From positions 1-39,869 of IMG/VR virus record IMGVR_UViG_3300021961_000231: a DNA stretch of 39,869 nt, one strand, 5' to 3'. Positions 11,046-34,354 of this stretch are shown piece by piece; position 1 is the stretch's first letter, and each line of letters starts with the position of its first letter. This stretch comes from a virus. The notes under the pieces are model-generated. The model ran no database searches. It worked only from the letters and a program-made list of their open reading frames with translations, and was not told where the DNA came from. Made by a program: the position numbers and the translations under genes.

Positions 11046-11493
11046 CGGCTGTGCTCGGGATGTTGCCAATCAGGCGTTGGGTTAGGCGGCGTTGCGGTAC
11101 GTCCGAGCCAACAGCGTCCAGCACTGTATTCAGCGTCAAATCCAGCTCGGCTTCTTTCCAGCGGCCACTGGCCACCATGCCGTAATACTGGTGCATCTGC
11201 GTAAAGCTGGTGCGGTCGGCTGGATCCAGCAGCATCACGCGGACATGAGCAATCCAGCGGTTATCTAGGGCTTCGACGGCCCAGTTGCGGCTGAGTGCGT
11301 TGTTGGGCAGGATCAGGGAAGCGTCAGTGTTGTCGCCGCTGCGGTTGACCGTGACGCCCGAGAAGCCAAACGGCAGAAAGCCATACTGCTCGCCGCTGTA
11401 GGTGATGGTTTCGCTGATAAAGAAGTTCTGGAACCGTTGGCGAACAATCCCGTTATCACTGAAGGTGATGAAGTTGCCGATCGCTAGTTCCAT
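11029..11493 (-). CDS. Distal tail protein, DUF1833/gpM-L-like
   Basis: A 154-aa beta-rich protein (MELAIGNFITFSDNGIVRQRFQ) placed between tape measure and NlpC-like genes, where lambda has M and L. The text ITYSGEQYGFLPFGFSGV and the closing DLTLNTVLDAVGSDVPQRRL recall DUF1833/DUF2163-like distal tail proteins, which form the ring joining tube and tip. Start ATG at 11493 overlaps the tape measure stop by one base. Confidence 0.6.
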   Translation of the reverse strand: MELAIGNFITFSDNGIVRQRFQNFFISETITYSGEQYGFLPFGFSGVTVNRSGDNTDASLILPNNALSRNWAVEALDNRWIAHVRVMLLDPADRTSFTQMHQYYGMVASGRWKEAELDLTLNTVLDAVGSDVPQRRLTQRLIGNIPSTAGVRLQ

Positions 11494-13883
11494 TACATCC
11501 CAAGCCGCTTACGGGTGCTGGTGGACATCTGAAGCCTACGCAGGGTGCGCTGTTCGCCTTGGGCGGCGCCTTGTTGGGCAGCTTGCTGCATACCAGTCTG
11601 GAACTGATCGGCGGTGACGTAATCCACGCTATTGATGCGTTCAACGGTGTAGCGCACGTCGATGGCAGCAGGTGCTGCGGTTGCGGTGCCGCCCATTCCG
11701 CCTTCGCCGCCGCCAGATGGGATAACGGCAGAACCACGGGCGCCAGCTGCGTAGCGATTCATGGCGCCGCGCATTTTGCTTTGAGGAATGACGTATTCCG
11801 GTTCGCCGCCTTCACCAATCAACGCATTGGTTGGACCTGTGACAAAGCCGCCTTCAGCAAATACGCCGCTCGGGAACATCTTGCCGGGGGATAAGGCGCC
11901 TTTACCCGATAAACCTTTACCGGCATCTGAGAGGTCTTTTTGGAAGCCACCAGCCCCGCTAAGTGCATTAAATATGGTTTGCAGAATGATCAATGTCATT
12001 TGCTTGGCAATGATTTCAAGCGCCATGCTGATAAACGCTTCGCCAATCTTTTTGAAGGCATCACTAAGGGCTTCCCGAACCGATTTAGAGCCAGTAATTA
12101 CTTCGCCAAATGCAGTGCTAAATGCATCGCCAATGGCGGTGGCACCAGTAACGATTGCCTGAGTCGCCAACTTGATTGGATTCAGTTGGTCCTGAAGATC
12201 AGTGATTGCCTTGCCGATACCGCCAGCGATGGTGTCTTGGCCCTCAACGCCAAAATCCATGCCTTTGATGATTTCATCCGTCAGCTCTTGGGCTTTCTTG
12301 ACTTGCTTTTCAAGTTCTTCGGTCTGAAGTTCAAGCAGCTCAAGCCTGCGGATTTCATCGTTGATTTGACTCAAATTGATCTGCTGCTCGGTATTCTTCA
12401 GCTCCGCGATTTGTTCGGCACGATCTTGATAGTCGTATTGGATTTGAAGACGCTTGCGCTCGATCTCTGAGGTTTCACCAATCAGAACGGCTTGACGCGA
12501 GAACTGAGTGAATAACTGGTTGCCGGTCTGCAGTGAACGCGCCAGTTCATCAGCAAGCTTTTTGGCTTCATTTGCCGTCTTTTTAGCGCCATCACCATTC
12601 GTTCCACCAAGCAGCGGAGGAGGGTTACCCCCGGTAATCGTCGGAGCTTTTGGCGCAGCAGTAGAACGGCCACCCCTTAACTGATCAAAGATCGCCTTTT
12701 CGCGCTCGGCAATGAATTGGCCCCTGCCCTCAGCAAAAACATTAAACCTGCCAAATTTTGCCCTTGCTTCTTCAATGGCTTGGTTTCTTGCTGTTATCTC
12801 ATCCTGCATCACAGTCGCATCGTTCAGCCGGTTAATGAACCGTGTGATGCCTTCAATCAGGAACTTGAATACAGGCTCGAAGAATTTACCGATGTTCTGA
12901 GCTAGTCGCTGGAAAGAATCCTGCAGTGTGCTCAACTTGCCAGCCAACGTGTCGCTTTGAGCGATGGCACCATTGGCATATTTGCCGCCAGCATCTGTCA
13001 GCTTTCTGACCGCATATTCAACAGCTTCAGCACTGATCTGACCTTTGCTTAACGCCTTCTGGAATTCGTCGCCACTGAGCTTGTATTCCTCTTTTAGAAC
13101 CTTTTGCAGTGCAACCCCGCGCTCCTGGAATTGCAGAAGTTCTTCACCTTGTAAACGACCCTTGGCCTGAACCTGGCCGTAAGCAGTGACAAGACCTTGA
13201 AGTTCAGCGCCTGTTGCACCAGAAACATCAGCAAGGCGCCTAGTGGTCTCAACGACCTTTTCAGTGTCAACGCCAAAAGCCTGAAGACGCTTTGCTGATT
13301 CAATCAGTTCAGTGCTAGTAAATGGCGTGACCGCGCCAATGTCCTGCAGCTGTTTAACAATGTCCCGTGCTTTTTCGGCGCTTCCAACAAGAACTTCAAG
13401 GCTGCGGGTTTGCTTTTCAATTTCTGCTGCCTGGCCAAATACAAATTGAATTGTCCTGCTGGCCGCGTAAACACCAACAAGTCCTCTGATGACACCGCCT
13501 AAGCGATTCCCGGATTGCGCATTTTGCTCTTGAGTTTGATTTGCCTGCCTTAGAACACGCTCATAGTCAGCGATTTGTTTTGCCGCTTTTTGATATATCG
13601 CCCCACCTAGTTGAACTTTGCTTTGCACGTCTCGCAACGCGCTGATCTGAGCCTTGATTGCCTGCTCAGTGTTTCTAACCTTGGCAGCGAATACGCCTTG
13701 AACTGTTGATGCCTTGGCGAACCCGCCTTGCTGCGCCTCAACAATCGCCTTTACGGCTTTGGCTCGATCTTCTAATTTCTTGAATCCGTCTGCGGCGCCA
13801 ACCGAAGTCTGCCGAATGGCCTTGAGCTGCTGCTGAACGCCGCGTGCATCAAGATTGACGGCAACATTGGCGACGACACCCAC
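11493..13883 (-). CDS. Tail tape measure protein
   Basis: A 796-aa protein starting with GTG at 13883. Residues about 150-330 match the tape-measure N-terminal domain (VLVGSAEKARDIVKQLQDIG, then TPFTSTELIESAKRLQAFGV and LQGEELLQFQERG). A coiled-coil stretch rich in Glu, Leu and Gln lies near 455-545. Hydrophobic helices near 585-650 (ALEIIAKQMTLIILQTIFNAL) would sit in the host membrane on DNA entry. The end is Gly/Ala-rich. Length times about 0.15 nm per residue suggests a tail near 120 nm (inference). Confidence 0.92.
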   Translation of the reverse strand: MGVVANVAVNLDARGVQQQLKAIRQTSVGAADGFKKLEDRAKAVKAIVEAQQGGFAKASTVQGVFAAKVRNTEQAIKAQISALRDVQSKVQLGGAIYQKAAKQIADYERVLRQANQTQEQNAQSGNRLGGVIRGLVGVYAASRTIQFVFGQAAEIEKQTRSLEVLVGSAEKARDIVKQLQDIGAVTPFTSTELIESAKRLQAFGVDTEKVVETTRRLADVSGATGAELQGLVTAYGQVQAKGRLQGEELLQFQERGVALQKVLKEEYKLSGDEFQKALSKGQISAEAVEYAVRKLTDAGGKYANGAIAQSDTLAGKLSTLQDSFQRLAQNIGKFFEPVFKFLIEGITRFINRLNDATVMQDEITARNQAIEEARAKFGRFNVFAEGRGQFIAEREKAIFDQLRGGRSTAAPKAPTITGGNPPPLLGGTNGDGAKKTANEAKKLADELARSLQTGNQLFTQFSRQAVLIGETSEIERKRLQIQYDYQDRAEQIAELKNTEQQINLSQINDEIRRLELLELQTEELEKQVKKAQELTDEIIKGMDFGVEGQDTIAGGIGKAITDLQDQLNPIKLATQAIVTGATAIGDAFSTAFGEVITGSKSVREALSDAFKKIGEAFISMALEIIAKQMTLIILQTIFNALSGAGGFQKDLSDAGKGLSGKGALSPGKMFPSGVFAEGGFVTGPTNALIGEGGEPEYVIPQSKMRGAMNRYAAGARGSAVIPSGGGEGGMGGTATAAPAAIDVRYTVERINSVDYVTADQFQTGMQQAAQQGAAQGEQRTLRRLQMSTSTRKRLGM

Positions 13884-13909
13884 AGCACTGCCCTTGTACT
13901 AGAAGCAGT

Positions 13910-14095
13910 CTACCGGCGCCGTTTTAGTTGACGCTCCTGCTCTTCATTCAGTAGGTCGAAATATGTACTCCACAACATCAGCTCTTCTAACGTCACCTCA
14001 CGACTCAACTGGGCCAGGCTGTAACCCAGCTCTTTGGCAACACCAAGCTGCAACAGCAGCAGATTGTCTTTTTTAAGCTCAGCCTTTAGTGCTTT
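13910..14095 (-). CDS. Tail assembly chaperone, second frame (frameshift product)
   Basis: A 61-codon open stretch in a different frame from the chaperone gene upstream. It reads KALKAELKKDNLLLLQLGVA, then KELGYSLAQLSREVTLEELM and ends in QERQLKRRR before TAG at 13910-13912. The GYSLAQL and TLEEL pattern is typical of the T part of siphophage G/GT chaperones. No ATG is usable near its beginning. A +1 or -2 slip at ATGAAAA (14099-14093) joins it to the upstream frame to give about 174-175 aa. Initiation at a CTG or TTG codon within LLLL is the alternative. Confidence 0.7.
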   Translation of the reverse strand, partial: KALKAELKKDNLLLLQLGVAKELGYSLAQLSREVTLEELMLWSTYFDLLNEEQERQLKRRR

Positions 14096-14435
14096 TCATG
14101 TCAACCTCTTCCTCCTCAGGATTGGTGACAATGGCCAGCATCAATGCCTGCAGGTCGGCGTCCAGCACATCGTTTTTCAGCTCAGCAATCTCGCCAGCCT
14201 GAAACAGGCGTTTGCCAGTGTCATCAATAGCCTTGGTAACCAAGAGATTGAGAGCAAAGCCATTCACATCCTCACCATTGGGCATTTTCTGAGCACGTTC
14301 ACGCTCAGCCATGGTCAACGGCGCTGAGTAAAACTCAAACTCTGTACCGTCAGTAAGCGTTACCACGCGCTTGATCGGCGTCAGATTTGCAGCCTTCTTC
14401 AGGCGGGCAAGAGCAGACGAGGCAGGCGCAGGCAT
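14079..14435 (-). CDS. Tail assembly chaperone, first frame
   Basis: A 118-aa, largely helical protein. Residues about 18-45 (LTPIKRVVTLTDGTEFEFYS) and 46-90 (APLTMAERERAQK...) match the G-type tail chaperone that coats the tape measure protein during assembly. It lies between tail tube and tape measure genes, the standard place. Its last residues are DMKSTKG, and the alternate frame that carries the T part begins before this stop, so ribosomal frameshifting is likely. Confidence 0.75.
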   Translation of the reverse strand: MPAPASSALARLKKAANLTPIKRVVTLTDGTEFEFYSAPLTMAERERAQKMPNGEDVNGFALNLLVTKAIDDTGKRLFQAGEIAELKNDVLDADLQALMLAIVTNPEEEEVDMKSTKG

Positions 14436-14517: not shown

Positions 14518-15276
14518 TCAGGCGGAGGTGCTGAAGTCGAAGGTAGGAACGCCAGCGGGGCGGAAGGTGATCTCAACCTGCTGAGCGTCGTCAGGGTTGA
14601 TGTTCATGCTGGCGGTCAGGAGCACGGCGTCCATGGCGATGGAACGGCTCAGGGCTTCGCTGCTCTGCTTGTCGGTGTAGAGCTTGAAGGCACAACCAAC
14701 TTGCTGACGCTGCAGCACATCTTCCACCATGCGGTTGGACAGGGCGGAATCTTCGTTGGTCACATAGACCGTGGCGGTGCCATTGCCATCAGCGAAACCA
14801 GGGATGTAAGCACGGAAGGGTGCGTATTGACCGGCGGTTTGACCGATGGTGGTCACGTCGATCTCGCTGCGGCTGATCTCGAAAGACCAGGACTGAACTT
14901 GGCCGACAGCTGCGTAATCGGCATAGGCAACCTGGAACTCGTTAGGAGCAGCAGCGGTGCCGTCGTCAGTGATAGTGATGGTTGCACCACCAGCAGAAGC
15001 AGAGACCTGCATGACGCCGGTTGCCGGGGCGTAGGCAATGACGTAATAGGTGGTAGCCAGGGAAATGCCAGCAGGCAGAGTGCCGGTGCCGGAACCCCCG
15101 GTCTGGCTATTGACTACGCTGAAAACGACAGGATCACCAACCTTGAAGTTGAGATAAGGCTCAACCGTGATCTCGTCGTCTGCAACACTGACACCAGATT
15201 CACCGAAAGTACCGGTGGTGCCAGCGGGCTTGTAATAGAGGGCGCCGGACGTACCGGACAAAACAGTGACAGCCAT
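14518..15276 (-). CDS. Major tail tube protein
   Basis: A 252-aa protein. The tube fold shows as QVQSWSFEISRSEIDVTTIG at residues 126-145, then PGFADGNGTATVYV, and the closing strand AQQVEITFRPAGVPTF. Residues about 37-118 form an inserted beta domain (VGDPVVFSV, TTYYVIAYAPATGVMQVSAS) that probably decorates the outside of the tube. It is preceded by the tail terminator and followed by a strong terminator, as expected for an abundant structural protein. Confidence 0.85.
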   Translation of the reverse strand: MAVTVLSGTSGALYYKPAGTTGTFGESGVSVADDEITVEPYLNFKVGDPVVFSVVNSQTGGSGTGTLPAGISLATTYYVIAYAPATGVMQVSASAGGATITITDDGTAAAPNEFQVAYADYAAVGQVQSWSFEISRSEIDVTTIGQTAGQYAPFRAYIPGFADGNGTATVYVTNEDSALSNRMVEDVLQRQQVGCAFKLYTDKQSSEALSRSIAMDAVLLTASMNINPDDAQQVEITFRPAGVPTFDFSTSA

Positions 15277-34095: not shown

Positions 34096-34121
34096 GGTAG
34101 GTAGAGCGTCAAGATCAAGAA

Positions 34122-34150
34122 TTACAACTTGCCGAAATAAGGGGTTTACT
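34122..34150 (+). promoter_or_regulatory. Promoter before the small-gene cluster
   Basis: -35 TTACAA (34122-34127), 17-bp spacer, -10 TTTACT (34145-34150) in AAGGGGTTTACTCC. It resembles the TATACTCC promoters at 30069 and 32297 with one base changed in the -10. The next gene starts at 34220. Confidence 0.55.
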
Positions 34151-34219
34151 CCTTGGGAATGCTGGCTACTATTCGCCCAACCGGAGCGATCCGGTCATCG
34201 CTACACACCACACAGACCC

Positions 34220-34354
34220 ATGAAAAACCTTGTCTCCAACACGATTCTCTTCCTGATCCCCACCCTCACCTTCGCCGCCATCTTCTACGACGGCCTCACC
34301 TACCAAGCCTCAAGCAACGCCCCCACCGTTCACCACGCAATCGTCATCAAGTGA
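34220..34354 (+). CDS. Small single-pass membrane protein
   Basis: A 44-aa protein: MKNLVSNTILFLIPTLTFAA, then IFYDGLTYQASSNAPTVHHA. Residues 4-22 form one transmembrane helix or a signal peptide. It is first in its operon. Early small membrane proteins of phages often block superinfection or act on host membrane proteins; here this is only a thought. Confidence 0.6.
   Translation: MKNLVSNTILFLIPTLTFAAIFYDGLTYQASSNAPTVHHAIVIK

Follow-up and report, generated by a model that had tools for sequence, protein, structure and literature searches.

A tail assembly chaperone gene of the lambda G/GT type, very probably expressed by programmed +1 ribosomal frameshifting, was identified by sequence analysis in an IMG/VR virus record of 39,869 bases (the whole stretch is referred to here as the window), whose closest annotated relative is Cyanophage KBS-S-2A. 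The initial annotation had proposed that a programmed frameshift at ATGAAAA connects a G-like part with a T-like one, and this proposal is upheld by gene order, predicted fold, selection on the two frames and conservation of the site. The gene belongs to a widespread group of cyanophage-like viruses in which ribosomes apparently slip in the +1 direction at a conserved AAA-AGC, and in the −1 direction in close relatives.

Overlapping frames and the direction of the shift

All features of the locus lie on the minus strand. ORF1 (14079–14435) encodes a G-like tail assembly chaperone of 118 amino acids in the 0 frame (phrog_20784, 3.4e-33); its 3′ end reads ...EEEEVDMKSTKG-TGA, the protein ends in DMKSTKG, and the 0-frame stop TGA occupies 14081–14079. 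The second open frame (13908–14095), which encodes the T-like C-terminal part (phrog_26456, 1.1e-4), is offset from ORF1 by +1 (equivalent to −2). It opens after a +1-frame TGA at 14098–14096, which lies just 5′ of the slip site AAA_AGC (14091–14096; 0-frame Lys-Ser) and sets the upstream limit of the frame; it starts with KALKAELKKDNLLLLQLGVAKELGYSLAQL and ends in RRR before the stop at 13910–13908. The frame offset, ends and stops agree with those read in the initial annotation, but the overlap, put there at 20 bases, is a little smaller, since 14 nt separate the second-frame stop from the 0-frame stop. The pair is flanked by the major tail protein gene upstream (14518–15276; phrog_158, 9.9e-8; phrog_1407, 1.6e-5) and the tape measure protein gene downstream (11493–13883; PF20155 TMP_3, 1.2e-25; phrog_9959, 2.9e-41), which is the placement of G/GT genes.

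Including the distant searches, a total of 372 usable gene pairs was collected, in which homology of the T part served as the anchor for assigning its frame; this frame is +1 in 261 pairs and −1 in 111. Some contigs were retrieved twice, and counts are therefore given for 190 representatives under 95% identity (136 of the +1 type and 54 of the −1 type), which are related to one another and are not independent trials, although the groups still diverge widely (ORF1 identity to the window down to 34–40%). No relatives were found among bacterial genome contigs, and no cultured relative of the +1 type was encountered. All 80 viral contigs similar to ORF1 keep GAY-ATG-AAA-AGC, the adjoining +1-frame stop and the downstream 0-frame stop, so that the alignment called for in the initial annotation finds the AAAA run retained, and both stops and the site common to independent contigs.

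In the wider sample, a 0-frame NNN_AAA_AGN is present in the overlap of all 261 pairs of the +1 type, and the window and these loci, with T in the +1 frame, do not fit a canonical −1 X_XXY_YYZ frameshift. AAAAG occurs in 136 of the 136 +1 representatives and is followed by C in 125 (giving AAAAGC), by T in nine, and by G and A in one each; elsewhere in the same genes, AAA accounts for 44–80% of the Lys codons and AGC for 9–23% of the Ser codons. The +1-frame stop occupies the same place in 113 of the 136 representatives and lies farther upstream in the rest. Counted from the first base of AAA, the 0-frame stop lies at a distance of 6 to 27 nt, and this variable spacing indicates that the stop does not belong to the slip site. 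In AG-345-A17, a marine and AT-rich group (hereafter, the AG group), the site is immediately preceded by the +1-frame stop TRA, and AGC is often followed at once by the 0-frame stop, leaving crossover possible only within AAAAGC. Two of the 80 contigs similar to ORF1 (L069 and L076) do not have the AAAGGCTGA with which the overlap ends, yet keep ATGAAAAGC. An AAA_GGC sequence near the ORF1 stop, at which a +1 move would lead from AAA to AAG, was also considered as the site and was rejected, being absent from L069, L076, L056, L120 and the AG group.

The initial annotation left the choice between a −2 slip of the AAA codon, with phage Mu as the comparison, and a +1 skip of one base. A +1 move would allow tRNA-Lys to re-pair perfectly, from AAA to an identical AAA, as P-site re-pairing requires at the level of sequence. 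A −2 move would place the same tRNA on NNA, with NN taken from the freely varying end of the codon before it, leaving no conserved re-pairing. The codon 5′ of AAA varies freely, with 13 kinds among the 136 representatives (ATG, TTG, TTA, CTG, TCC, GCC, AGC and others), while the fourth A, which the +1 move alone requires, is invariant; the pattern of conservation therefore leads us to conclude that the direction at the window site would be +1 and not −2. A Mu-type −2 slip at AAA, which would insert one extra residue (DMKKALK), is permitted by the frame arithmetic alone but is very unlikely, as the codons on which it would land in relatives (TGA, TAA, CTA, CCA, GCA, CGA and TCA) share no common pairing. 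The Mu comparison thus fails, and the earlier estimate of a fusion of roughly 175 amino acids, correct for a −2 slip (175), becomes 174 for a +1 skip.

Under programmed +1 frameshifting, most ribosomes would finish ORF1 at its stop, producing the short chaperone (G). In a minority, with peptidyl-tRNA-Lys on AAA (14096–14094) and AGC in the A site, we infer a movement of one base forward, upon which tRNA-Lys would re-pair with the overlapping AAA (14095–14093) and GCA (Ala) would become the next codon. The second frame would then be read from GCA (14092–14090) to the last coding base at 13911, yielding a 174-amino acid G-T fusion with the junction ...EEVDMK-ALKAELKKDN.... By analogy with lambda, G would coat the tape measure protein and the T part of G-T would recruit the major tail protein.

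Coding evidence and identity of the T part

Purifying selection is strong on both the G and the T frames. Read in the +1 frame, T has a dN/dS of 0.08 in the window's group, 0.20 in the AG group and 0.12 in the L120/L214 group; across the groups, the other frames give values from 0.66 to 4.4 and also contain stops. In the window's group, the same DNA gives 4.4 and 0.66 in its other two frames against 0.08 in the second frame, a difference that argues against a chance open frame. No conserved start codon was found when the first 20 codons of T were scanned for ATG, GTG and TTG in the three groups, and the start that the initial annotation had suggested looking for in relatives is accordingly not a shared feature. 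The T-like part is therefore conserved, in a different frame and devoid of a start of its own, as in G/GT genes.

The alternative that T is a separate protein, whose translation would start internally (e.g., at the TTG in NLLLLQL) through re-initiation coupled to termination at the end of ORF1, is improbable to a similar degree as the −2 slip. Some members of the window's group do have a TTG 11–13 codons after the beginning of T, but no internal start is conserved, and 68 of 135 representatives have no ATG, GTG or TTG within the first 20 T codons (34 of 39 in the AG group, 13 of 50 in the window's group and 21 of 46 in the L120/L214 group). Moreover, an internal start would remove the conserved KKDNLLLLQL and would leave the invariant AAAAG unexplained.

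Transcriptional slippage, by which bases would be added or dropped in the A run, is less probable still. The window has a run of four As and KBS-S-2A one of six, and slippage by bacterial polymerases usually requires longer runs; in addition, the conservation is phased by codon, with AAA in frame 0, and reaches into AG, which counts against slippage during transcription. Homologues shifting in opposite directions, as found here, have nevertheless been read, for transposase genes, as hinting at transcriptional realignment (PMC3711429). Finally, a chance overlap, a pseudogene or a sequencing indel is scarcely credible, because purifying selection acts on both frames, because hundreds of independent contigs retain the arrangement, because independent contigs from many metagenomes have both stops and the site in common, and because the single indel closing the two frames into one, raised in the initial annotation, is present in no retrieved relative.

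With respect to protein identity, distant family members of ORF1 match phrog_344, annotated “tail assembly chaperone” (2.3e-5), and homologous T parts match the tail families phrog_337 and phrog_14766; Pfam gave weak matches only, including Phage_TAC_13 for 5 of 35 members. An AlphaFold2 model of the fusion, for which the window fusion was supplied together with G and T rows read from viral contigs, is of moderate quality (pLDDT 82.7, pTM 0.50). Its best PDB match is 2ob9, the HK97 tail assembly chaperone (probability 1.00, E 2.3e-3, TM 0.49 by target length), and the next different entry has a probability of only 0.10; the predicted fusion thus resembles the HK97 tail assembly chaperone. The BFVD entry D6PII1, an unnamed and uninterrupted viral protein of 179 amino acids, shows 36% identity along the whole G-T fusion; seen as a protein entry, it suggests that G and T are encoded without interruption in one frame in some phage.

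Sequence context of the slip site

Several elements known to accompany recoding sites were searched for around AAA_AGC. No group showed a specific downstream RNA structure in windows that begin at the site or 3′ of it (mean z about −0.9 to +0.1), Rfam yielded no match, and no phage-encoded tRNA was found in the window by ARAGORN. An RF2-type Shine-Dalgarno (SD) element just 5′ of the P-site codon was not detected in the +1 groups, where the mean anti-SD energy is near 0 close to the site, nor was an SD-like stimulator in the window's group, in which anti-SD pairing is weaker than the synonymous null. AGC is used 26 times per 1000 codons in the window, where it is the commonest Ser codon, 17.8–30.4 times in two groups and 4.4 times in the AG group. 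Other genes show no avoidance of AAA_AGC, its frequency in them being about as expected. Consequently, slow decoding in the A site is not established, and AAA_AGC by itself would probably promote shifting only to a mild degree.

The AG group has a further element. Approximately 22 nt 5′ of the site, an SD-like AGGAGG or AGGGGG gives an anti-SD value of −10.1 compared with −6.1 (sd 0.43) for the synonymous null, and is followed by GAGGCUAAAGCCGA. A later scan returned 78 AG-group loci fitting the pattern, which overlap in part with contigs already in the set, and in 73 of these GAGGCUAAAGCCGA is unchanged even at synonymous sites. Examples with AGGRGG...GAGGCUAAAGCCGA within the 30 nt preceding AAAAGC are L084, L124 and L148. 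This sequence is likely to be a 5′ stimulator specific to the AG group. GGCUAAAGCC could form a 3-bp hairpin, whose stem is invariant, so that covariation speaks neither for nor against it.

Homologues with a −1 shift and comparison with known systems

Each of the 111 homologous pairs of the −1 type holds a canonical heptamer, mostly A AAA AAC and otherwise A AAA AAA, C CCA AAG or G GGA AAG. Cyanophage KBS-S-2A, Synechococcus phage S-H1 and Cyanophage S-2L are among them; they share the G and T families and the gene order of the window, but their parts are joined by −1 shifting at A AAA AAC or C CCA AAG. In the −1 homologues, shifting leads to the same T part, which points to the fusion as the product that is conserved. 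In KBS-S-2A, the T part is unannotated and lies at about 5440–5617 of L081 (NC_020854, about 34,100–34,277), with the −1 shift at GTA AAA AAC (A AAA AAC). The S-H1 pair, at about 3505–3720 of L082 (MK105819), has A AAA AAC, and a separate 47-amino acid ORF is annotated at T. A −1-frame G/T pair is also present in Prochlorococcus phage MED4-184 (L377, 1151–1704; NC_020847), with the overlap GCA AAG GAA TCC TAA, which has no obvious canonical X_XXY_YYZ heptamer and in which the shift site is possibly A_AAG. These observations correct the annotation of KBS-S-2A; in all of these phages, automatic gene calling will overlook G-T.

Two changes are required to place the +1 and −1 labels on a maximum-likelihood tree of 54 fusions, and none of 200 bootstrap trees requires only one. 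The +1 clade of the window (98/99 support) is nested within the −1 clade of KBS-S-2A (96/97 and 97/96). A wider tree that adds the AG and S-H1 groups requires four changes, with long branches that make its deeper joins unsafe. As read from the family tree, the predicted direction of frameshifting has changed at least twice within this chaperone family.

The best-known counterpart is the programmed −1 frameshift of the lambda G/GT genes (Xu, Hendrix and Duda; reviewed in PMC5009743), which shares with the window the placement between the major tail protein and tape measure genes, a short G with a C-terminal T extension, a shift near the 3′ end of G and an HK97-chaperone-like fold. The window differs in its +1 direction, in having AAA_AGC instead of a −1 heptamer, and in that no stimulator was found in its group. 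Phage Mu also reaches the +1 (= −2) frame (PMC5009743), but −2 re-pairing would not be possible at the site conserved here. In the yeast elements Ty1 and Ty3, the +1 sites CUU_AGG_C and GCG_AGU_U likewise place a sense AGN codon (AGG or AGU) in the A site, and Ty1 shifts by P-site re-pairing (PMC5009743); these are, however, retroelements read by eukaryotic ribosomes, for which slow AGN decoding is established, as it is not here.

According to the same review, the tail genes of different phages use −1, −2 or +1 shifts, with −2 in Mu and very likely +1 in HSTV-2 (PMC5009743), and the SEA-PHAGES training set contains 350 forward cases (PMC10885494); HSTV-2 and these forward cases resemble the window in direction and gene. 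Frameshifts of the +1 type in tail chaperones were thus already known in general. PRFect includes a motif of four equal bases (“four”) that formally covers AAAA, and its authors state that no general motif has been identified for forward sites; in the accessible parts of PMC5009743 and PMC10885494, we found no description of an AAA_AGN site or of a −1/+1 switch within one homologous family, and no literature linking KBS-S-2A with frameshifting was found in a search limited to papers accessible without subscription. We lean towards regarding AAA_AGN (mostly AAA_AGC) as a class of bacterial +1 recoding site not described before, carried by a large virus family in which −1 and +1 would have been switched at least two times and to which AG-345-A17 adds a 5′ element consisting of a strong Shine-Dalgarno sequence and then the invariant GGCUAAAGCC hairpin. 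Known forward sites are few, and more than 100 diverse examples with one invariant core, accompanied by sisters that shift in the opposite direction, constitute a natural experiment on the direction of frameshifting.
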